NCBI GenBank assembly: GCA_018061265.1 | Contig: JAGOUM010000016.1 | Location: 1-47,029 of the forward strand | Reading direction: 5' to 3' | Length of the DNA: 47,029 nucleotides | Source: Rhodoferax sp. | Lineage (GTDB): Bacteria > Pseudomonadota > Gammaproteobacteria > Burkholderiales > Burkholderiaceae_C | Part shown: in pieces, positions 1 to 19,163 of the stretch | Numbering within the stretch: the stretch's first letter is position 1 | How the letters are laid out: each line of letters opens with the position of its first letter | Program-made: the position numbers and the translations under genes | The notes under the pieces: generated by a model | Databases searched by the model: none | What the model saw: only the letters and a program-made list of their open reading frames with translations | Told to the model about the DNA's origin: nothing

Positions 1-279
1 GTCAAAGTGAGCGGCAGCATGGGCTCCAACCAGAGCGACATCGTGCACCAGTGGGCCATTGCCGGGCTAGGCATCATTCCGCTGGCCAGCTGGGACGTGG
101 CCGGGCTGCTGCGCGAGGGCCAACTGGTACGCGTGCTGCCGCAGTACCACCAAAGCGCCGATGTCTGGGCCGTCACCGCAACCCGGCTCGATCAGTCCGC
201 CAAATTGCGCATGTGCATGGAGATGTTGATTCGCCACTTGCAAACGGGCCCCCACGCGCTTGATACCTCCGTGCGCTAA
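1..279 (+). CDS. LysR-type regulator, C-terminal fragment (cut by window edge)
   Basis: Only the last 92 residues are in the window; the frame is open from base 1 and stops at 277-279. The segment carries the pattern of the second effector-binding subdomain of LysR regulators: an isoleucine/valine stretch, then a short GLGIIPLASWDV motif, then a 'LREGQLVRVLP' strand that in this family closes the substrate-binding domain. The DNA-binding helix-turn-helix would lie upstream and cannot be seen. The gene points toward the aroE-like/tct cluster, 160 bp away, and may regulate it, although LysR genes are more often divergent from their targets. The family call rests on the C-terminal pattern alone. 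Confidence 0.75.
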   Translation, partial: VKVSGSMGSNQSDIVHQWAIAGLGIIPLASWDVAGLLREGQLVRVLPQYHQSADVWAVTATRLDQSAKLRMCMEMLIRHLQTGPHALDTSVR

Positions 280-438: not shown

Positions 439-1398
439 ATGAACGATCAACGAAACAAAACTCTGACCGACGCGGTCGATATGCCACCGGTAAGCGGCAG
501 CACCGATGTCTACCTGATTTTGGGAGACCCGGTCGAGCAGGTGCTGGCACCGGAGACCTTTAATCCCCTGTTTGCGCGTTTTGGCTACGACGCCGTACTG
601 GTGCCGGTGCAGGTGTCGCCTAAGCATCTCCAGACCTTTGTCAAGGCCGTGTTTCTGGCCAAAAGCATCAAGGGACTCTGGATCACCATTCCCCACAAAG
701 TGCCGATCATGGCGGCGCTTGACCACTGCAGCACATTGGGTCAGCGCGCAGGGGCTGTCAATGCCGTGCGCCGCAACCCTGACGGCACACTGGAGGGTGG
801 GCTGTTTGACGGCGAAGGCTTGGTCAACGCGCTGAACTACTTCGGCATGGCGCACGTTGGCAAGAAGGTCCTGGTACTCGGTGCGGGTGGCGCGGCCGCG
901 GCGATTGGCGCTTCGCTCGCAGCAGGCGCCAACGCCGTCAGCGAACTGGCTTTTTATGACCCTGCAGCCAACCGGGCCGCTGATGTGGCAGCGCGCTTTG
1001 CCGCGAGCACCACGACGCGCGTTTTCGCGACCACCAGCAACGACCCGGCCGGCTTTGACCTGGTGATCAACGCCTCACCACTGGGCATGCACGCCAGCGA
1101 TGCGCTGCCACTGGATGTGTCGCGTCTGGCCCCTCATGCCGCGGTGATGGACATTGTGATGAAAAACCAGCCCACCCCGCTGGTACAGGCGGCGCGTGCC
1201 CGCGGACTCAACGCCCAGCCGGGCTTTGAGATGTTGATCCAGCAAGCGCACCTGTACCTTGATTTTTTTGGCATGACCGATGCCGCCCGAGCCGTTGCGC
1301 AAGATGCCACCCTGCTGCGCGAACACATTTACCCGGCCCGCTTGCAAGGCGAGATCCGCCCTGCCGCAGCCGCCACCAGCGCCTCAACATCCCGGTAA
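439..1398 (+). CDS. Shikimate/quinate dehydrogenase family protein with altered substrate pocket
   Basis: 319 aa, slightly longer than AroE (about 270). The N-terminal substrate domain is followed by a Rossmann domain with GAGGA (148-152). The catalytic lysine (ITIPHK, K87), the asparagine of AGAVN (N108) and the catalytic aspartate (FDGEG, D124) are retained, as is the late glutamine in MLIQQA. However, the S-x-S motif that binds the shikimate carboxylate in AroE (HSxSP) reads QVLAP here, with V35 and A37 in place of both serines. An NAD(P)-dependent oxidoreductase acting on a substrate other than shikimate is therefore likely. The gene heads a same-strand run with a TTT transporter and aromatic-catabolism homologues, so a housekeeping aroE role is unlikely. 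The ATG at 439 has only a weak ribosome site. Confidence 0.8.
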   Translation: MNDQRNKTLTDAVDMPPVSGSTDVYLILGDPVEQVLAPETFNPLFARFGYDAVLVPVQVSPKHLQTFVKAVFLAKSIKGLWITIPHKVPIMAALDHCSTLGQRAGAVNAVRRNPDGTLEGGLFDGEGLVNALNYFGMAHVGKKVLVLGAGGAAAAIGASLAAGANAVSELAFYDPAANRAADVAARFAASTTTRVFATTSNDPAGFDLVINASPLGMHASDALPLDVSRLAPHAAVMDIVMKNQPTPLVQAARARGLNAQPGFEMLIQQAHLYLDFFGMTDAARAVAQDATLLREHIYPARLQGEIRPAAAATSASTSR

Positions 1399-1442
1399 AC
1401 GAGGCGATTCAAACCCATTTTTCAACCCAAAGGAGACTCACC

Positions 1443-2432
1443 ATGAATGTTCGTCGTCAAATCCTCGGTGCCGCCGCACTGGCCCTGTTTGCATGCAGCG
1501 GTTTTGCCCAAACTTACCCCGACCGTGAAGTGTCGGGCGTCATCCAGTGGGGTGCCGGTGGTGCCACCGATGTGGTGATGCGCTCGCTCATCCCTTACGC
1601 TGAAGAAGCGCTGGGCAAAAAAATCGTGCTGCAAAACAAGGCCGGTGGTGTGGGTGCCATCGCCACCAACTTTGTGTACCAGCAAGCCGCTGACGGCTAC
1701 ACCCTGCTGCTGGGCGCCGAAAACCCGCAATTGCACCCTGTGCTGGGACTGAGCGACCTGGACTACAGCAAGTTTTACCCGGTGAACGTGGTTGGTCGCG
1801 CCAGCGTGCTGGTGGTGGCACACCCCGACAAGCCCTGGAAAACCTTCAAAGACCTGTTGAACGACGTACAAGCCAACCCCGGCAAGGTCAAACAAGGCTC
1901 CACCGGAACCGGCGGCTTGCCATTTACCGTCAGCTCCATGGTGGCCACCGTGGCCAAGTTCCCCGCCACCTCGGTGCCGTTTGACGGTGACGGCCCGGGT
2001 GTGACCGCCTTGCTGGGCGGCCACGTGGACTTCATGTTTGTCGGCATTGGCGCTGCGGCAGAGCACATCAAGGCCGGTCGCCTGAAGGCCCTGGCGGTGC
2101 TGAGTACCGAAGCCTATGACAACATTCCGCCCATCACCAACGACCTGCCAGGCATCGCCAAGTACCTGCCCTGGGGACCGTTTTATGGCGTGTTTGTCAA
2201 AAAAGACGTGCCCGATGCCGCCAAGGCCAAACTCACCGCGGCCTTCAAGACGGCCGCCAGCAACCCGAAGTTTCTGGAGTTCATGAAGGGCCGTGGCAAC
2301 GTGACCATGAATCTGTCTGGTGCCGAAGCAGAAACCTTCCTGAAGAAATGGCAGTCGGTCACCGCCTGGACCTACCAGGAAGTGGGCGTGGCCAAGAAGA
2401 ACCCGGCTGACCTGGGCATTCCAAAGCCCTGA
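1443..2432 (+). CDS. tctC: Tripartite tricarboxylate transporter substrate-binding protein (Bug/TctC family)
   Basis: 329 aa periplasmic binding protein. An N-terminal signal peptide (basic MNVRRQ, hydrophobic stretch, cleavage near GFAQ-TYP) is followed by the Bug-family start 'YPDREVSGVIQWGAGGATDVVMR', whose loop after the first strand contacts a ligand carboxylate. Length is typical of the family (320-330). A strong ribosome site, AAAGGAG, lies upstream of the ATG. TctB and TctA follow on the same strand after a gap of about 100 bp, so the complete three-part, ion-driven importer is present. Bug proteins bind carboxylates (citrate, amino acids, aromatic acids). The ligand cannot be read from sequence; neighbouring genes suggest a cyclic or aromatic carboxylate. 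Confidence 0.92.
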   Translation: MNVRRQILGAAALALFACSGFAQTYPDREVSGVIQWGAGGATDVVMRSLIPYAEEALGKKIVLQNKAGGVGAIATNFVYQQAADGYTLLLGAENPQLHPVLGLSDLDYSKFYPVNVVGRASVLVVAHPDKPWKTFKDLLNDVQANPGKVKQGSTGTGGLPFTVSSMVATVAKFPATSVPFDGDGPGVTALLGGHVDFMFVGIGAAAEHIKAGRLKALAVLSTEAYDNIPPITNDLPGIAKYLPWGPFYGVFVKKDVPDAAKAKLTAAFKTAASNPKFLEFMKGRGNVTMNLSGAEAETFLKKWQSVTAWTYQEVGVAKKNPADLGIPKP

Positions 2433-2536
2433 ACTGCTGCACAGTCGTGCTAAAGTTCTTGCCGTTTTATGGCTCCAGCCCAGACGGCAAGGGCTTTGAC
2501 AGCTACAACAACTGTATCGTTTGATTGGAGACCTCC

Positions 2537-3037
2537 ATGCCCTTGCGCCGTCGCCGACTCCCCGGAGAGTTGATCTTTGCCCTGTTACTCGTCGGTCTTA
2601 GCCTGTTCCTGCTGTGGCAAGCCTACGGAATCTCGGGCTTCGAGTCGCTCACTTCGGCCGGCGCATTTCCCATGGTGGCCTCTGCAATCATGCTGGTTAC
2701 AGCAGTGCTTGCATTGCGTGACACCACCCGCTATCCGCGGATCGATCGTGAAGACGGGCAGTCGCTGTGGGCACAGTTTGTGCACAAAGTGTCGCCCGCG
2801 GTGCTGGTGCAGTTTGTGGCGTGTATTGCCGTCTACATGCTGGCACTGGAAAAAATTGGTTTCATTCTGTCTTCCTATGTTTTCCTGCTGGTGTCGATGC
2901 GGGTGCTTGGCAGCCGCAAGTGGGTCCTCAACCTGTGGGTCAGCGCACTGTGTCTGGCCGTGGTTTACCTGATTTTTCAGACTGTTTTCTCGGTGGTTCT
3001 GCCGACCGGCTCACTGCTGCAAGGGGTGCTGAAATGA
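2537..3037 (+). CDS. tctB: Tripartite tricarboxylate transporter small membrane subunit TctB
   Basis: 166 aa with four hydrophobic segments, near residues 12-30, 40-60, 85-115 and 125-160, the usual TctB topology. Together with TctA it forms the membrane part of a tripartite tricarboxylate transporter. The chosen start is the ATG at 2537, because GGAG lies seven bases upstream; an in-frame TTG at 2525 would place this Shine-Dalgarno inside the gene. The stop overlaps the start of tctA by four bases (ATGA), a sign of translational coupling and equal subunit production. Confidence 0.9.
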   Translation: MPLRRRRLPGELIFALLLVGLSLFLLWQAYGISGFESLTSAGAFPMVASAIMLVTAVLALRDTTRYPRIDREDGQSLWAQFVHKVSPAVLVQFVACIAVYMLALEKIGFILSSYVFLLVSMRVLGSRKWVLNLWVSALCLAVVYLIFQTVFSVVLPTGSLLQGVLK

Positions 3038-4533
3038 GTGAGGCACTCGGTTACTTTTTTATGTCCTGGGTGGACCCCAAGTTGTTGTTTTTGATCGCCA
3101 GCGGCACCTTTTGCGGCATCTACATCGGCGCCATTCCGGGACTGTCGGTCACCATGGCGGTGTCGATCCTGATCTCATTCACCTTCAAGTGGGACATGAA
3201 CTCGGCGCTGGCGGTGATCGCCGGCATATACCTGGGCGGTGTGTATGGGGGCTCGCGCAGCTCTATTTTGCTCAACATACCCGGCGCGCCTTCGGCCATT
3301 GCCACCGGGCTGGACGGCTACCCGCTGGCCAAACGGGGCGAAGCGGGAAAAGCCATCGGCCTGACCACCATCATGAGTGTGTATGGCGGTTTTGTCGGCA
3401 TCCTGGTGTTGGCCGTTGCCGCACCTGCAGTGGCCAGCCTGGCGCTGAAGTTTGCTCCGCGCGACTATTTGATGCTGGCCATCTGGGGCATTTTGCTGGT
3501 AGGTAGCCTCTCGGGTGGATCACTGGCCAAAGGAATTTTTGCCGGTGCCTTTGGTGTCATCATTGGCTCGGTGGGCCTTGACCCCATGACGGCCGAGCCG
3601 CGTTTTACGTTCGGTAACCTGCAACTCACCGCCGGTATTTCCTATGTGGCGGCCATGATCGGTTTTTTTGGTGTCGCCGAGGTGCTGGTGCAATTGCATG
3701 AGATGCACCTCAAAGCGGTCAAACAGAACGTGGCCAAAATCATTCCCCCGTGGAGCCTGGTGCGCAAATACCTGCCACTGGCCACCCGTACATCGGGCAT
3801 TGGTGTGGTCGTGGGTGCCCTGCCCGGTGCCGGGGGTGATATTGCCGCGCTGATGGCTTATGACCATGCCAAACGCAGCGTCAAGCATCCATCCGCGCCG
3901 TTTGGCGAAGGAGCTTACGAAGGTCTGGTGGCGCCAGAGTCCTCCAACAACGCTGCCGTGCCCGGTGCTTATATCCCGATGCTCACCCTGGGCATCCCAG
4001 GGGATGCGGTGACGGCGGTGATCATCGGCGCAATGTACATCCACGGACTCAAGCCCGGCCCGATGTTGATGATCGAAACCCCACACCTGTTCTGGTTCCA
4101 GGTAGGTGCCCTGGTTTTGGCCAACATTTTCTTACTGATTTTTGGCATGACCGGAATCAAGCTGTTCGCCAGGATTGTGGAAACTCCCAAACCCATCCTG
4201 CTGCCATTAATTTTGCTGCTGTCGGCCGTGGGTGCATACGCCATCAACAACAACCCCAGCGACGTCTATTGGATGCTGGGTTTTGGTGTGGTGGGCTACT
4301 TTTTCAAGATGTATGGCTTTCAGGTCGGCCCCATCATTCTGGGCATGATCCTCGGCCCGCTGATGGACAAGTCGTACCGTCAGGCGATGATTTCTTCGGA
4401 AGGCAATATCACCCAGTTTGCCGGTGAGTTTTTCACGTCACCACTTTCGGCCATCATCCTGGCCGCGCTGACGCTCACGATTCTCAGCCAAACCAGCTGG
4501 TGGAAGCGCATGCGGGGGATTGCAAAGGTGTAA
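3034..4533 (+). CDS. tctA: Tripartite tricarboxylate transporter large membrane subunit TctA
   Basis: 499 aa, standard TctA length, with about ten to twelve hydrophobic helices. The conserved glycine-rich family signatures are visible: 'GIYIGAIPGLSVTMAV' near residue 30, 'GIYLGGVYGGSRSSILLNIPG' near 65-85, and a second inverted-repeat copy, 'GALPGAGGDIAALMAYDHAKR', near 270, followed by 'PMLTLGIPGDAVTAVIIGA'. This subunit forms the translocation path. The start is the ATG at 3034 inside the tctB stop; the frame is open a further 267 bases upstream, but that stretch is out-of-frame tctB. Downstream, 56 bp separate it from the VOC gene, so the enzymes and importer are probably co-transcribed. 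Confidence 0.95.
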   Translation: MSEALGYFFMSWVDPKLLFLIASGTFCGIYIGAIPGLSVTMAVSILISFTFKWDMNSALAVIAGIYLGGVYGGSRSSILLNIPGAPSAIATGLDGYPLAKRGEAGKAIGLTTIMSVYGGFVGILVLAVAAPAVASLALKFAPRDYLMLAIWGILLVGSLSGGSLAKGIFAGAFGVIIGSVGLDPMTAEPRFTFGNLQLTAGISYVAAMIGFFGVAEVLVQLHEMHLKAVKQNVAKIIPPWSLVRKYLPLATRTSGIGVVVGALPGAGGDIAALMAYDHAKRSVKHPSAPFGEGAYEGLVAPESSNNAAVPGAYIPMLTLGIPGDAVTAVIIGAMYIHGLKPGPMLMIETPHLFWFQVGALVLANIFLLIFGMTGIKLFARIVETPKPILLPLILLLSAVGAYAINNNPSDVYWMLGFGVVGYFFKMYGFQVGPIILGMILGPLMDKSYRQAMISSEGNITQFAGEFFTSPLSAIILAALTLTILSQTSWWKRMRGIAKV

Positions 4534-4589
4534 GTCCCTCAGCATCGGCATAATGGCCCCGGTTCATTCATGGAAGGTAATCAACCACT

Positions 4590-5486
4590 ATGGCAGCAGT
4601 CGCCCTATCGCCAAACCCGGATCGTGAGGCCATTGCCGATGCGTCCAACCCGATCGGCCTTGATGGCATCGAGTTCATAGAGTACAGCACCGCCCGCCCC
4701 CAGGCGCTTGGCCAGGTGCTGGAAAACATGGGGTTCAAACCCGTGGCGCGCCACCGCTCACGCGAGGTATTACTGTACCGTCAGGGTCCGCTCAACATCA
4801 TCGTCAACGCCCATTTCAAAGGCACCGCTTTGAGTGAGCAACCGGTACTCAACGCGGTGGCGCTTCGGGTGCGTGATGCAGCGGCGGCTTACCGACGTGC
4901 GCTGGACCGGGGTGCATGGGCGGTGCCCGCGCAGGTCGAGGTGATGGAACTCAATATCCCGGCGGTACATGGCGTGGGTACCAGCCGTATCTATTTTGTC
5001 GATCGCCACAAAGAATTCTCCATTTACGATGTGGACTTCACGCCGATACCTGGTGTCGATCAGCACCCGCCTGCCGTGGCCGGGCTACACTTTTTTGGCA
5101 TCGTGCAGTACATCGGTAACGAGCGCACTGAGGACTGGACCGAGTTTTACCGTGAGCTGTTTGGTTTTATCGACCTGCCGGCCGAGCAACGTTTTGGTAT
5201 TTTGCCCAAGGGCCGCATCCTGCGCAGCCCGTGCCCGCCGGTATCGCGCTTTTATATTCAGCTGATCGAGCCAGAGGCGACGGTACTCGATGTCGAAGAC
5301 GACGAGGGACTTCACCGCATTGGCCTGGGCAGCGCCGATGTGCTGGCCACAGTGGCCGAACTGAGCCAACGCGGCGTGGACTTTGTGGAATCTGCCAACG
5401 TGCGCTCTGACGCGCGGGGGGCACTGACCAAAACACAACTCGGCAGTGTGAGTTTTGAGATCGTTCACAACCAGGCGGGCACCTGA
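4590..5486 (+). CDS. HPPD-like VOC-family protein (resembles C-terminal domain of QuiC1)
   Basis: 298 aa with two vicinal-oxygen-chelate halves, as in 4-hydroxyphenylpyruvate dioxygenase (HPPD). The first half starts with 'GLDGIEFIEYST' (23-34). The second carries three potential iron ligands in the HPPD pattern: H167 (GLHFFG), H242 (GLHRIG) and E290 (SFEIV). Unlike the other enzyme homologues in this cluster, its metal site looks intact. HPPD itself is about 350 aa; this length and the 'RHRS' and 'LYRQG' motifs are closer to the HPPD-like C-terminal half of QuiC1, the bacterial 3-dehydroshikimate dehydratase. The next gene, one base downstream, encodes a TIM barrel like the N-terminal half of QuiC1. 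The substrate is unknown; tyrosine catabolism is not supported by the context. Confidence 0.8.
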   Translation: MAAVALSPNPDREAIADASNPIGLDGIEFIEYSTARPQALGQVLENMGFKPVARHRSREVLLYRQGPLNIIVNAHFKGTALSEQPVLNAVALRVRDAAAAYRRALDRGAWAVPAQVEVMELNIPAVHGVGTSRIYFVDRHKEFSIYDVDFTPIPGVDQHPPAVAGLHFFGIVQYIGNERTEDWTEFYRELFGFIDLPAEQRFGILPKGRILRSPCPPVSRFYIQLIEPEATVLDVEDDEGLHRIGLGSADVLATVAELSQRGVDFVESANVRSDARGALTKTQLGSVSFEIVHNQAGT

Positions 5487-5487
5487 C

Positions 5488-6363
5488 ATGGGTCAATACA
5501 GCGCCAATATTGACGACTTTGGCATGGACAGCCGCTGCATGGCTGGACCGTTGCCGCACCGACTACAAGCGGCACGCGAGGCGGGTTTCGCACAGATCAT
5601 GTTGTCGGCATCTGATCTGGCGCAGTATCCGCTAGGTTTTGAGTCTGCGGTTGCCGCAGTGCGAGAGAGTGGCTTACGAGTCACAGGTTTTCGGGCACTG
5701 ACTGACTTTGAAGGTTTGACCGGTGCCATGCAGGATTTCAAGCTGGAGGTGGCGCAAGCCATGTTGAGCATGTGCCACGCACTTGGTTGCCGATTGTTGG
5801 TGCTCGAAGCAAGTGGCGCTTCACAAACCAGCAGCGACAACTCCGAAATCACTCGCAGCCTGCGCCAGTTATCCACCCTGGCGATCCCGAAGAACATTCG
5901 TATTGCCTACCGTGCTCACCCCAGAGCGATCGCGGCGCGGGACTTCGCCCAGGCATGGGATCTGGTCTGCCAGGCTGACATGCCGAATCTGGGCCTGTGT
6001 ATTGACATGCTCGAGGTGTTGTGCAGTGACTCGACCGACAACGACCTGGAAATGCTCGACAGTGAGAAATTGTTTCTGGTGCAACTGGCAGACAGCCTGG
6101 GCGACTGCCAGTCCGGCCTGCGGGTTTTTGCCGGAGCCGGCGAACACACCGCTGCGCTGGTCGAGATGGTCACCACGCTGCACCGGATTGGCTACCGTGG
6201 CAACTATTGCATGACCGCCTCGAATGCCGATTACCAAAGCATGCCGCCGGCGGTTGCGGCGCAGCATGCCTGGAGATCAGCGCTCTGGCTGGGGCAGGAC
6301 GTGCTGCAGCGCTCGGTTCCCATGCCCAACAAGATCAGACTCAAGCGACAGTTCGTTTTGTGA
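5488..6363 (+). CDS. Xylose-isomerase-type TIM-barrel protein, metal site degenerate (DSD-domain-like)
   Basis: 291 aa, sugar phosphate isomerase/AP endonuclease 2 fold. Segments characteristic of the dehydratase domain of QuiC1 are present: 'DFEG' (73-76), 'AWDLVCQADMPNLGLCIDML' (156-175), 'KLFLVQLADS' (194-203) and a final 'HAWRSALWL'. Family members bind a divalent metal through E, D, Q and E, with a nearby H. Here D173 and Q199 remain, but R142 sits where the first glutamate is expected (AYRAH), E176 where the histidine is expected, and T243 where the last glutamate is expected (CMTAS). Normal dehydratase chemistry is thus doubtful. The start follows the VOC stop by one base, which suggests coupling and perhaps a complex. 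The residue equivalences come from alignment by eye. Confidence 0.75.
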   Translation: MGQYSANIDDFGMDSRCMAGPLPHRLQAAREAGFAQIMLSASDLAQYPLGFESAVAAVRESGLRVTGFRALTDFEGLTGAMQDFKLEVAQAMLSMCHALGCRLLVLEASGASQTSSDNSEITRSLRQLSTLAIPKNIRIAYRAHPRAIAARDFAQAWDLVCQADMPNLGLCIDMLEVLCSDSTDNDLEMLDSEKLFLVQLADSLGDCQSGLRVFAGAGEHTAALVEMVTTLHRIGYRGNYCMTASNADYQSMPPAVAAQHAWRSALWLGQDVLQRSVPMPNKIRLKRQFVL

Positions 6364-6390
6364 AACAGCGGCGACAAAGCGCATCAACAC

Positions 6391-7656
6391 ATGAGTGTTT
6401 TAGAGAGTTTCCTGACGACCCCCGAAGTGACCGAGGCGCTGAGCGACCGCCGCTTTGTGGCCGGCATGCTGCTTTTCCATGCGGCACTTTCCCGGGCGCA
6501 AGCCAGCAACGGGGTGATCCCGGCAAGTGCAGCCCAGTCCATCGTCGGCACTTGCAAAGTGGAGCTTTTTGACGTACCCAAACTGACGCGTGAAAGCGGG
6601 CGCGTCCGATGCCTGGCTGATCCGCTGCTACATCACTTGCGGGAAACCGTCGCATTGTTCAACCCTGATGCGGCGAAATTTGTCGGATATGGCTGTACCC
6701 GGCAGAATCTGGTCGACACCGCATTGGCAATGGTGAGTCGTGATGCATTGACCCTGGTGTGCACTGATGTATCTCGTACCCTGACCACGCTGTTGCGCCT
6801 GGCCGGTCTGCACGCTGCAACACCTGTACTTTTGCAGCAACCCGGGGCATCACCTGAATTGAGCAGTTTCGGCCTGCAATGTGTTCAATGGGCCACACCG
6901 CTGGCGCGCAGCCTGCTGCGCCTGAATGCATGCGCCACCCAAGCGCTTGTTGTGCATCTGGGAGATTGGCCCGTCGCATCGGAAGAACGCCACAAAAGTC
7001 TGACCACAACAGCCGCTAAAGTGGCCAGTGAGCTACAACTGACGGGTGAGCCAGCAAGTACTGGTAGTCGCTACGATGAATGGGCAGTGCTTGCCAGCGA
7101 GCTTGGCATACTGATTGCCAGCCACGTCAGGATCACCCGGAACATGGAGGCCCTGATGCGGTCAGGTCTGCTGGACCTGGTGCCAACACATGCGTACGCG
7201 GTGGCCAGCGCATCGGTGAGTGCGCCGCAGCCAGCATTAGCCAGCTGCATGGTGGTTGGGGCAGCGGCGCAATCGGCACCACACAGAGTGGCAGCAATCC
7301 TTGCTGGCCTTTTCGAGGAAGGTACTGCCAATAACAACTGGCAGGCTAGCCTGGGCCAGTGGCATGGTTTGCTGTCATCAGCGCATGGTGCAGCGCGGGC
7401 AACATCCGAGTTGCTATGCGCGATTCAGGTCAAACCTCAGGGTATGCAGGACGATATTGCCCAATACCGTGCCGCCTTGTCCCCGCGTGAGTCAGCGCTG
7501 AGGCTGGGACCCGACGCGCTACAGCAGTTGGCTCGCTTGGCCGTAGAACAGGCTGCGTTGCTGCGTGGGCAAATCGACTTGGCCAGCCCCCCGGAGCCGT
7601 CTGCCCCGCTCAATCCGCCTTTGCGGGAAGAGCCCGGCGCGCTGGCGCTGGCGTGA
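6391..7656 (+). CDS. 3-carboxy-cis,cis-muconate cycloisomerase-like protein, catalytic signature lost
   Basis: 421 aa, length and fold pattern of the fumarase/aspartase superfamily, closest to PcaB: 'TPEVTEALSDRRFVAGMLLFHAALSRAQ' at the N-terminus, then 'GVIPASAA'. The first conserved region survives in weakened form (GYGCTRQNLVDT, 99-110). The superfamily signature GSSxMPxKxNP is absent; the equivalent region (about 271-285) is alanine- and serine-rich, with no lysine. The histidine region expected near 150 reads LLQQPG. The tail (401-421) is proline-rich. It is the last gene before the convergent ligC. A carboxymuconate cycloisomerase belongs to the 3,4-cleavage route, whereas the neighbouring cluster is 4,5-cleavage, so a conventional PcaB role does not fit. 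No clear ribosome site precedes the ATG. Confidence 0.72.
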   Translation: MSVLESFLTTPEVTEALSDRRFVAGMLLFHAALSRAQASNGVIPASAAQSIVGTCKVELFDVPKLTRESGRVRCLADPLLHHLRETVALFNPDAAKFVGYGCTRQNLVDTALAMVSRDALTLVCTDVSRTLTTLLRLAGLHAATPVLLQQPGASPELSSFGLQCVQWATPLARSLLRLNACATQALVVHLGDWPVASEERHKSLTTTAAKVASELQLTGEPASTGSRYDEWAVLASELGILIASHVRITRNMEALMRSGLLDLVPTHAYAVASASVSAPQPALASCMVVGAAAQSAPHRVAAILAGLFEEGTANNNWQASLGQWHGLLSSAHGAARATSELLCAIQVKPQGMQDDIAQYRAALSPRESALRLGPDALQQLARLAVEQAALLRGQIDLASPPEPSAPLNPPLREEPGALALA

Positions 7657-7737: not shown

Positions 7738-8688
7738 TCATTTCAATTGGAGCTGGAGTTGATGTAATACCTGATAACAGGGCAGCACACTGGCCACCGA
7801 GCTGTTGGGTTGTCGGCCTTCAAGAATGGCCGAGAAGAACTCGCGGTCCTGCAACTCGATGCCGTTCATGCTGACGGCCACTGTTGACACGTCAATTTTT
7901 TCTTCCTTGCCGGTAAACAGGTCGTCGTAACGCGCAATGTAGGTGGCGCTGTCACCGATGTAGCGGAAGAAGGTGCCCAGTGGGCCATCGTTGTTGAAGC
8001 TCAGACTCAGTGTACAAATGGCACCGTTGGCGGCCTTGAGCTGGATACTCATGTCCATGGCGATGCCCAGCGTGGGGTGAATGGGGCCTTGAATGGCGTT
8101 GGCCTTGACCACCGGGCTGCCACACTGGTAGGCAAACAGGTCCACCGTGTGGGCCGCGTGGTGCCATAACAAATGGTCGGTCCAACTGCGCGGTTGGCCC
8201 AGGGCGTTCATGTTGGAGCGGCGAAAGAAATAGGTTTGTACGTCCATTTGCTGGATGTTGAACTGACCCGCCCTGATCTGCTGGTTGACATACTGGTGGC
8301 TTGGATTGAAGCGGCGGGTGTGGCCACACATGGCGACCAGGCCCGACTTTTCAGCGACCTGCACCACTTCTTCGCCATCTTTGAGTACATCGCACAGCGG
8401 GATTTCCACCTGCACATGTTTGCCGGCTTTCAGACAGGCCAGGGTCTGGCTGGCGTGCATTTGGGTGGGGGTGCACAAAATGACAGCGTCCACCTCGGGC
8501 AGCGCCAGGCTGTCGGCCAGCTCGGTGGTGACATGCTGGATGCCGTATTGGGCGGCGATTTCTTTGGTCTTGTCGAGTTCACGGCTGATCAGCGAGACCA
8601 CTTCGACGCCGTCGATGTTTCTAATGCCGTCGAGGTGTTTGATGCCAAAGGCACCGGCACCGGCCAGGGCGACTTTGATGGGTTTCAT
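7738..8688 (-). CDS. ligC: 4-carboxy-2-hydroxymuconate-6-semialdehyde dehydrogenase
   Basis: 316 aa, matching LigC/PmdC length. It oxidises the hemiacetal form of the LigAB ring-cleavage product to 2-pyrone-4,6-dicarboxylate with NAD(P)+. It belongs to the GFO/IDH/MocA family: Rossmann motif GAGAFG (10-15), 'CTPTQMHASQTLACLKAGKHV', 'EIPL' in the place of the usual EKP, and the C-terminal-domain motif 'LLWHHAAHTVDLF'. The start is the ATG at 8688, preceded by AGAAGGAAA; the frame is open upstream without a better start. It is the last gene of the protocatechuate gene run and is separated from ligB by 431 bp containing a large inverted repeat, so it may be transcribed separately or processed. 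Confidence 0.92.
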   Translation of the reverse strand: MKPIKVALAGAGAFGIKHLDGIRNIDGVEVVSLISRELDKTKEIAAQYGIQHVTTELADSLALPEVDAVILCTPTQMHASQTLACLKAGKHVQVEIPLCDVLKDGEEVVQVAEKSGLVAMCGHTRRFNPSHQYVNQQIRAGQFNIQQMDVQTYFFRRSNMNALGQPRSWTDHLLWHHAAHTVDLFAYQCGSPVVKANAIQGPIHPTLGIAMDMSIQLKAANGAICTLSLSFNNDGPLGTFFRYIGDSATYIARYDDLFTGKEEKIDVSTVAVSMNGIELQDREFFSAILEGRQPNSSVASVLPCYQVLHQLQLQLK

Positions 8689-8744
8689 GGTGTTTCCTTC
8701 TGAAGATAAAAAGTTTCGGATTGCTTTGAAGTACCTGTGATTTG

Positions 8745-8837
8745 ATCCGCCTGGCGGGCCGGGTATCTGACTCCGCTCATGTCCCCCGGCTTGGGCTTCG
8801 CTCAAGCCTCCTCCTTTACTTCCCTACGCCAGACACC
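8745..8837 (+). repeat. Left arm of a 93-bp imperfect inverted repeat, with inner hairpin
   Basis: This 93-bp stretch matches the reverse complement of 9008-9100 at about 75 of 93 positions by hand count. Blocks GCTCATGTCCCCCGG and AGCCTCCTCCTTTACTTC are identical. Inside the arm, 8788-8808 forms a hairpin of nine pairs around a TTC loop. The arm begins 56 bp upstream of the ligC start. It looks like a dispersed REP-like element. The 170 bp between the arms show no gene I can support. Confidence 0.8.
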
Positions 8838-9119: not shown

Positions 9120-10491
<1,372 letters not shown>

Positions 10492-17941: not shown

Positions 17942-17979
17942 GAAGTCTCCAGTTGTTAAAACGAATACCAGTTGGGATC

Positions 17980-18333
17980 TTACTTTTTCTGGGTCATGGG
18001 TGTCATGCCAGACCAGACGACAGCAGGTACCATGACCTCGCCACGCATGATGAGACGAGCGGTACGCAACAACGCCGCTTTGGTGACATTCTGCGGATTG
18101 GCAGGATCCAGTCCTAGGGTCACGCTGAACTCACCCGTGGGATGCTCAACAGACACCGTCGGGTCCACATCCGGCCCCATCACCGCCACACCGTCGCAGA
18201 CAGAGCCCTGTAGAACACACGCTGTGCCCACAGTGACTGCAGCCAGCACTCCGATTGCATCGTGGCAAACATGGGGAATGAAGCTGCGGGTTGTGATGCT
18301 GCCACCGGACCGCGGTGGCGCAATCAAGGTCAT
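17980..18333 (-). CDS. PrpF-family 4-oxalomesaconate tautomerase, C-terminal part of split gene
   Basis: 117 aa, the C-terminal third of a PrpF/GalD-type protein: 'SITTRSFIPHVCHDAIGVLAAVTVGTACVL' is a continuous family segment. Its ATG overlaps the stop of the N-terminal part (ATGA) and lies one frame away. Alone it lacks the N-terminal lobe, so it cannot be a free-standing tautomerase. It could be made by coupling, joined by -1 frameshifting, or be the tail of a broken gene. Together the two parts give about 377 residues, normal for the family (GalD is about 360). Confidence 0.7.
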   Translation of the reverse strand: MTLIAPPRSGGSITTRSFIPHVCHDAIGVLAAVTVGTACVLQGSVCDGVAVMGPDVDPTVSVEHPTGEFSVTLGLDPANPQNVTKAALLRTARLIMRGEVMVPAVVWSGMTPMTQKK

Positions 18334-18339
18334 TTTGGG
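18330..18339 (-). other. -1 frame junction with slippery heptamer C CCA AAA before TGA
   Basis: On the - strand the N-terminal frame ends ACC CCA AAA TGA. The heptamer C CCA AAA (18339-18333) fits the X XXY YYZ pattern of -1 slippery sites and is followed at once by the stop. A slip back of one base reads CCA AAA ATG ACC and continues in the C-terminal frame. A lost A in the run of four A's would have the same effect. Confidence 0.6.
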
Positions 18340-19112
18340 GTAATTTTTTGGCTCACATCGCCAAGACCCATCATGACTGATACCTGCAAGCGAAGGGCCT
18401 CGATCCGCTGCTTCAAGGCTTCATTGGCGTTGAGCTCGGCAACACTTTCGTAACCCGTACAACCAAGGTCAGCCGCCTTGAAAATGACCAGCGGCATGCC
18501 GTTGTCAATACAGGTGACATCCACAGTGAAGGGATCAAAACCTTCGCCCGTGACAGCGACGCTATCTCGCACCTGGCCTGTGGGCAACATGCCAGCACAA
18601 ACTGAACCTGCGGTGTCCAGAAAATTGATGGCAACCGGTGCCGCACTACCCGGCACACCGTCGATATGGGCATCTCCGGTGTAATTAACCCGACCACCCC
18701 GGGTTGACACGGTGACGTCACATTGCATACCGGTATTGAGCGTCAGTACCCGCGCCGTTGTGGTGTCGCCCTGCACTGGCACTAAACCCCGCTCAATGGC
18801 AAACGGCAAGACCGCAGCCAGCATGTTGCCGCAATTGGGTGTGGTGTCCACCGTGTTTTTGTCGGGCTGCAATTGGGCAAACAAAAAATCCACAGCCACT
18901 CCGGGAGTGGAACTCGGACTGACGATGCCAACCTTGCTGGTCAAGGGGTTGGCACCACCCAGGCCGTCGATCTGACGCCGATCAGGTGAGCCCATGACGG
19001 CCAACAACACCCGGTCACGCATGGTGACGTCCGTCGGCAACTCAGAGGCCAAAAAAAACGGCCCGCGCGATGTTCCGCCGCGCATGAAATAACAGGGAAT
19101 CGGGGTTTGCAT
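18330..19112 (-). CDS. PrpF-family 4-oxalomesaconate tautomerase, N-terminal part of split gene
   Basis: 260 aa from the ATG at 19112; a TTG at 19142 would add ten residues. The diaminopimelate-epimerase-like fold of PrpF/GalD/LigU is recognised by 'MRGGTSRGPFF' (10-20), 'GGANPLTSKVGIVS' with the catalytic-type lysine K60, and 'TPNCGNMLAAVLPFA' near 100. LigU-type enzymes shift the double bond of oxalomesaconate to give the substrate of LigJ. The frame stops after 'VSQKITPK', exactly where homologues continue into the segment encoded one frame over at 17980-18333. It is the first gene of the protocatechuate run, divergent from a LysR gene. Confidence 0.75.
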   Translation of the reverse strand: MQTPIPCYFMRGGTSRGPFFLASELPTDVTMRDRVLLAVMGSPDRRQIDGLGGANPLTSKVGIVSPSSTPGVAVDFLFAQLQPDKNTVDTTPNCGNMLAAVLPFAIERGLVPVQGDTTTARVLTLNTGMQCDVTVSTRGGRVNYTGDAHIDGVPGSAAPVAINFLDTAGSVCAGMLPTGQVRDSVAVTGEGFDPFTVDVTCIDNGMPLVIFKAADLGCTGYESVAELNANEALKQRIEALRLQVSVMMGLGDVSQKITPK

Positions 19113-19163
19113 GGCTTTGAGTTTTGACGCGAAATTGGCCAAATGCCATACCCAATCCGCGAC

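Follow-up and report, generated by a model that had tools for sequence, protein, structure and literature searches.

The stretch of DNA analysed here, hereafter the window, comprises 47,029 nucleotides of a Rhodoferax sp. genome (assembly GCA_018061265.1, contig JAGOUM010000016.1, positions 1 to 47,029). Seven intact, tightly packed plus-strand frames occupy positions 439–7656, separated by 44, 92, −4, 56, 1 and 27 bases in operon order. The first encodes an AroE-like oxidoreductase (439..1398; Pfam SDH N-domain) and is followed by genes for an importer of the tripartite tricarboxylate transporter (TTT) family, namely, the solute-binding protein TctC (1443..2432), whose best solved match is the TTT binding protein 25hk, the small membrane subunit TctB (2525..3037) and the large membrane subunit TctA (3034..4533, with the start at 3034). 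All three subunits exceed the gathering scores of the corresponding Pfam families. The remaining genes encode an HPPD-like VOC protein (4590..5486; Pfam HPPD N-domain), homologous to the C-terminal half of QuiC, a TIM-barrel protein (5488..6363; Pfam AP_endonuc_2), hereafter TIM, homologous to the N-terminal dehydratase half of QuiC, and a PcaB-like protein (6391..7656; Pfam Lyase_1, under the gathering score) with a conserved N-terminal region and no catalytic loop. In NCBIfam, the three correspond to the QuiC C-part, the QuiC N-part and PcaB, respectively, all under the cut-offs. The original prediction for this DNA placed a complete TTT importer between the AroE-like gene and the VOC–TIM–PcaB trio, with tight spacing and intact frames, and held that residues defining catalysis or substrate binding are missing from three of the four enzymes; profiles, coordinates and alignments bear out each of these points.

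The AroE-like protein is homologous along its entire length to the shikimate dehydrogenase family protein 4k28/AroE and keeps the Lys of TIPHK and the Asp of FDG, which we take to be the AroE catalytic pair, whereas QVLAP stands at the place of the SxS-type motif, presumably the shikimate-binding one, and the score remains under the aroE cut-off (TIGR00507; 158.9 of 200.2 bits). The VOC protein matches HPPD (1cjx, 9qmf) well in the N-terminal domain but reaches only 85.2 of 277 bits for TIGR01263, and carries I171 and R243 where HPPD has H161 and H240, with E290 kept at the place of E322; these three HPPD residues are, we assume, the Fe(II) ligands. The PcaB-like protein is homologous over most of the chain to PcaB, the 3-carboxy-cis,cis-muconate cycloisomerase (1re5, TIGR02426), whose cut-off is exceeded by its relatives in L032 and L083. 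The window protein, however, reaches only 127.4 of the required 355.75 bits and is missing the GSSxMPxKxNP loop, with AVASASVSAPQPAL (7198..7239) replacing GRGGSSxMPHKRNP. In the TIM, residues T72, R142 (codon at 5911..5913), H144, E176 and T243 align with QuiC R64, E134, L136, H168 and E239, and a portion of the loop following VQLAD is missing. PMC7442255 lists ten active-site residues for QuiC, of which the window protein keeps L97, D165, Q191 and R210, so that only D165, Q191 and R210 remain of the set used here to recognise a QuiC-type dehydratase (R64, E134, D165, H168, Q191, R210 and E239). Compared with the two-domain dehydroshikimate dehydratases QuiC1/QsuB (5hmq, NF042435), both halves are present and adjacent, but as two separate genes in reversed order, scoring 89.2 and 88.8 bits against the single-chain cut-off of 1200 bits; the VOC half is without two metal ligands and the TIM half without R64, E134, L136, H168 and E239. 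Twelve aligned TIMs in the active state keep all of R64, E134, L136, D165, H168, Q191, R210 and E239.

A PcaB-like query run against 200 genomes of the family gave a match of any strength in 77, and VOC, TIM and PcaB were found in this order in seven of 29 loci from other genomes, read with 1.5 kb flanks. Some VOC match is present in 40 of the 89 genomes of the genus; in 17 of these, besides the window's own match, the VOC protein is at least 75% identical over most of its length, and these 17 loci were taken into the comparison, whereas the contig-cut VOC matches of G247 and G277 from the same genus were left out. A scan of public genomes by VOC contributed the best 80 of at least 403 relatives, and after the removal of 19 duplicates, 89 VOC rows remained, the window included; all counts out of 89 refer to this set. 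Because the loci were picked by VOC, the frequencies describe neither TIM nor PcaB proteins at large. The full order with TctCBA, for which recurrence in other genomes had been proposed as a check, is found in five genomes of the same genus (L072, L073, L077, L079 and L080) and in the Polaromonas metagenome-assembled genome L102; in L076 and L081, a TctCBA-type order is interrupted by contig ends. The TIM gene lies at most 1.5 kb downstream of the VOC gene in 88 of the 89 loci, the exception being L076, where the contig ends. Among the 69 loci with an active TIM, 49 carry a LivKHMGF-type ABC importer (four genes typed by profile, the fifth, LivF, labelled by position) and one has a TTT importer nearby. 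Thus, the window's importer, a TTT (TctCBA/Bug) system with all three subunits, occupies the place of the ABC importer of many relatives, indicating that the importer has been exchanged around a VOC–TIM core that stayed. The operon is widespread in Comamonadaceae, mostly in a version in which an ABC importer replaces TctCBA. In the Polaromonas genome, which has an intact TIM, TctC and TctA are 87% and 89% identical, respectively, to the products of window positions 1443–4533. A second type of operon, AroE2–VOC–TIM, is present in L084–L086, with VOC proteins 56–58% identical to that of the window, complete TIM residues and, in L084, a location near ligCBA.

The alterations of the three proteins have different histories. 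At the place of HPPD H161, all 89 VOC rows have V, I, L or A, at that of H240 all have R and at that of E322 all have E (MAFFT alignment); loss of two of the three iron ligands is a family-wide trait. The TIM was scored at seven positions (E, W, D, H, Q, R and E; states from MAFFT alignments), which are complete in 69 of the 89 loci. The set is lost in 14 and partly altered or truncated in four; one further TIM is a fragment, and one lies beyond a contig end. The TIM of Polaromonas sp. JS666 (L105) belongs to the complete ones, whereas Rhodoferax sp. U2-2l (L088) carries a VOC and TIM of the clade described next. All 14 TIMs read in one same-genus clade that contains the window show the loss; together with the contig-cut L076, these rows form a single clade of 15 (SH-aLRT 97 in a quick tree and support of 100/98 in a more careful one), the TIM of the L076 genome, located on another contig, not being among the 14 read. 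Partial TIM changes occur in L081, L082 and L165. L081 has Q at E239 and the PcaB loop MPHQRKQ, L082 has S at E134 and has lost the PcaB loop, and L165, from a lineage distant from the window's clade, reads QWGHQGE at the scored positions. The column of S206 holds Ala in active relatives as well. A search of 20 genomes, including the 15 of the clade, recovered no second QuiC-type dehydratase, by which the TIM would be made redundant, scoring above 33 bits to the dehydratase part in the clade genomes (assemblies 69–100% complete).

The PcaB loop is absent from all 13 PcaB-like proteins read in the window's clade, replaced by unlike or deleted sequence. It is also deleted in L102 and L124, and the first Ser of the SS pair is missing in L101, L109, L034, L036, L038 and L083. 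Furthermore, two groups (L127, L128, L130, L142, L156 and L163; L140, L147, L150, L155, L157 and L160) encode short PcaB-like forms of 271–328 aa beside an active TIM, with the N-terminal SIxxTCKxxLFD block kept; the L106 protein is truncated by a contig end. With VOC changed in 89 of 89 rows, TIM in one clade and PcaB in several lineages, a joint origin of all three alterations in the window's lineage is ruled out. The window's genome also encodes a second lyase of the PcaB/fumarase type with an MPQKRNP loop (L002, 1303–2685, minus strand), and similar near-cut-off scores occur in other genomes.

The pattern of conservation in the altered proteins is uneven. A set of 66 active TIMs has 174 columns with conservation of at least 95%, and 75 of these columns still reach 90% or more in the 14 dead TIMs; the best-kept stretch extends from residue 270 onward, around LxRSVPxPNxIRL (mean 0.91), and the worst-kept ones are 90–119 (0.45) and 180–209 (0.42). 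Similarly, the 29 PcaBs whose loop ends in HKxNP have 189 columns with at least 90% conservation, of which 69 persist in the 13 dead PcaBs; residues 30–59 are the best kept (0.92) and residues 270–299, the loop region, the worst (0.38). The N-terminal block also persists in the short forms of 271–328 aa. A subunit retained for its contacts would be expected to show such a pattern, with constraint on the TIM tail and the N-terminal block of PcaB and not on the catalytic site.

Selection on these proteins was assessed by pairwise codon likelihood with our own script, stop signs being stripped before alignment so that the frames are open by construction. For 27 pairs of dead TIMs with dS below 2 (pairs at or above this value were left out), dN/dS is 0.105–0.342, with a least likelihood-ratio test (LRT) value of 41.5 against omega 1; for seven pairs of dead PcaBs, it is 0.10–0.21, with a least LRT of 72. 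As dS is saturated above ~1.5 (window versus L067: 1.51 for TIM and 3.53 for PcaB), the case rests on the close pairs among L072/L073 and L078/L079/L080. Restricted to close pairs of two dead copies, the TIM range is 0.14–0.20. In 12 pairs with an active TIM, the values are 0.005–0.044 for TIM, 0.003–0.044 for VOC, 0.035–0.088 for loop-bearing PcaB (six pairs) and 0.057–0.204 for short or loopless PcaB (six pairs). Constraint on the dead TIM is thus approximately tenfold weaker than on active relatives, yet clear.

This relaxation is what slow decay would produce if TIM and PcaB were useless and their frames mere remnants under weakened selection. The loop deletions, the missing PcaB of L070 and the partly altered L082 point the same way, as does L122, outside the clade, in which the PcaB frame beside an active TIM is only 185 aa long and matches just the first 132 residues, with no contig end involved. 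Nevertheless, omega 1 is rejected in every reported pair, which speaks against simple decay, and the frames of all 14 TIMs and 13 PcaBs read are open even though the TIM minimum spanning dS is ~16; by a rough count, neutrality at 0.3 changes per site would already have left TIM with ~9 stops and PcaB with ~11. The altered genes have dN/dS values well under 1, not the value near 1 named beforehand as the mark of decay, and we regard decay as the main cause as improbable. The earlier claim that the altered enzymes do not decay together by chance holds as far as selection is concerned, but the changes differ in kind and in lineage, so that the alterations do not form one joint event. By sequence, TIM and PcaB fit the definition of pseudoenzymes, being homologues of enzymes without the catalytic residues and under purifying selection.

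Purifying selection alone would also agree with enzymes that have acquired a new, metal-free chemistry in a pathway whose substrate, a compound resembling quinate, shikimate or protocatechuate, enters through TctCBA and is oxidized by AroE. The importer within the operon, the Lys/Asp pair of the AroE-like protein and the polar pocket partly left in the TIM lend some weight to this possibility. However, at the TIM columns lost in the clade, no replacement other than S, V, L or Q is shared by at least 85% of the proteins (Cys171, for example, is present in 64%), and no new charged set is fixed; the PcaB loop is unlike or deleted even inside the clade, and several members are without AroE and importer. 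We therefore consider new chemistry unlikely. The proposal that the altered enzymes constitute a divergent catalytic pathway is accordingly not supported: the VOC change is shared by the entire family, the catalytic sites of TIM and PcaB have been removed and the PcaB loop has been lost in several ways, a combination that agrees better with retained non-catalytic proteins than with altered specificity.

The ancestral operon may have encoded a quinate/shikimate-type route to protocatechuate, with an importer, an AroE-like oxidoreductase, a dehydratase and a PcaB for 3,4-cleavage. VOC and TIM would together have formed a two-subunit QuiC-like dehydroshikimate dehydratase made of separate proteins. 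TIM and PcaB of the window's clade would then have lost catalysis but been kept as pseudoenzymes, most likely persisting as structural or allosteric subunits of a VOC-based assembly, in which VOC may use the Arg at a former metal-ligand position to bind an anionic ligand. That VOC, TIM and PcaB form an assembly with TIM and PcaB as subunits that are now non-catalytic is, in our estimate, the most likely reading, at about even odds. For QsuB, a fused homologue, PMC7442255 proposes that the HPPD-like domain promotes oligomerization and reports that inhibition by protocatechuate changes type without this domain; these roles of the HPPD-like half support the assembly by analogy.

Several observations weigh against such an assembly. 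AroE is less constrained in the three dead-clade pairs (0.12–0.17) than elsewhere (0.03–0.11). Three members of the clade (L068, L069 and L075) have no AroE or importer beside the trio, and in L070 PcaB is missing from the locus, with no remnant of it found by tblastn; hence, no composition of the complex is universal. Finally, polar residues are left at the old TIM site (D173, R212, N246 and D248, as well as Q199 in 11 of the 14 proteins), which keeps an altered activity conceivable. A more specific variant appears doubtful: the trio would be a non-catalytic complex with an aromatic or cyclic acid as its ligand, serving the uptake operon as sensor, buffer or scaffold, and PcaB would have turned structural repeatedly, in different genera, after the disappearance of its substrate. 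It is also unlikely, in our view, that VOC, with AroE and the importer where present, is the sole catalyst, with a putative metal-independent activity, and that TIM and PcaB are its folding or stability partners. In the dead pairs, VOC indeed shows the strongest conservation of the three (dN/dS 0.048–0.067), with 103 columns at least 98% conserved over 89 rows and R243, E290 and Y174 present in 89 of 89. Against this, the homologous domain has no known activity, and QsuB left protocatechuate unchanged in vitro according to PMC7442255.

The fate of the PcaB loop was compared with the occurrence of protocatechuate dioxygenases in 62 genomes. PcaH was counted in 15 of these, 13 over the cut-off and two (L116 and L103) on partial or split matches. 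With L070, L084 and L086 left out for having no PcaB at the locus, all 15 PcaH-positive genomes carry the canonical loop, as against five of the 44 PcaH-negative ones (Fisher p 4e-10, a value that ignores kinship); when only Ser, Lys and Asn are required, the counts are 15 of 15 versus nine of 44 (p 3e-8, likewise ignoring kinship). On the tree, the canonical loop state can be explained by only five changes and PcaH by three, and an independent-pairs test was not significant (two pairs concordant, none discordant, two not differing; median p 0.5). Because the rows are related and the tree-aware test is not significant, the association stays a lead; it suggests that in genomes without the 3,4-route the PcaB protein was retained although its catalysis no longer served a purpose. 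LigA exceeds the cut-off in 36 of the 62 genomes, once alongside PcaH, and 12 genomes, some of them incomplete, have neither PcaH nor LigA over the thresholds. Three of the latter (L070, L074 and L080) belong to the window's clade, which speaks against a role strictly tied to protocatechuate. A PQQ membrane dehydrogenase, which we take to be of the quinate-dehydrogenase type, is over the cut-off in seven of the 62 genomes, all with an active TIM, and in none of the 14 clade genomes of this set, five of which have weak matches.

Taken at the level of sequence, these observations suggest that in one group of Rhodoferax-like bacteria, an operon for uptake and degradation of aromatic acids keeps catalytically dead proteins that are held by selection and would have a non-catalytic job. 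Family-based annotation as HPPD-like, sugar-isomerase-like and PcaB proteins would predict steps of quinate or protocatechuate metabolism of which the proteins in the window are probably incapable. Together, the loci form a natural series of active, partly altered, dead and shortened proteins, in which the loss of catalysis can be placed on the tree while selection persists; this makes them a good opportunity to test how metabolic enzymes become structural proteins and bears on the role of the HPPD-like half in QuiC/QsuB. Titles and abstract openings of the open-access literature yielded no account of this operon or of dead forms of its proteins. Pseudoenzymes are of a known kind, but no account was found in that literature of a dehydratase and a lyase both maintained as pseudoenzymes in one operon, with intermediates and repeated PcaB loss.

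Downstream of the operon and convergent with it lie minus-strand genes of the 4,5-cleavage route, typed by profile matches. A Gfo/Idh/MocA-type oxidoreductase (7738..8805), presumably LigC-like judging from its position, is the convergent neighbour; it is followed by LigB, the class III extradiol dioxygenase beta subunit (9120..10148), and LigA, the protocatechuate 4,5-dioxygenase alpha subunit (10015..10491; TIGR02792, 218.8 bits against a cut-off of 108.6). The frame of a 4-oxalomesaconate tautomerase (GalD/PrpF-like; 17942–19142, minus strand) stops early at 18330, with its continuation open in another frame, which reflects either a frame break or an assembly error near 18.33 kb. Thus, the predicted convergence with a 4,5-cleavage cluster stands, but the set is not fully intact as had been supposed. 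Among the other clade members, convergence with lig genes is found only in L067. On the other side of the operon, the contig start truncates a gene of which the 3′ end remains (1..279, plus strand; Pfam LysR_substrate), encoding a LysR-type regulator. At this position, many relatives instead have a divergent upstream IclR-type regulator close to the PcaR/PcaU/PobR model (271.9 bits, under the cut-off of 284.75).

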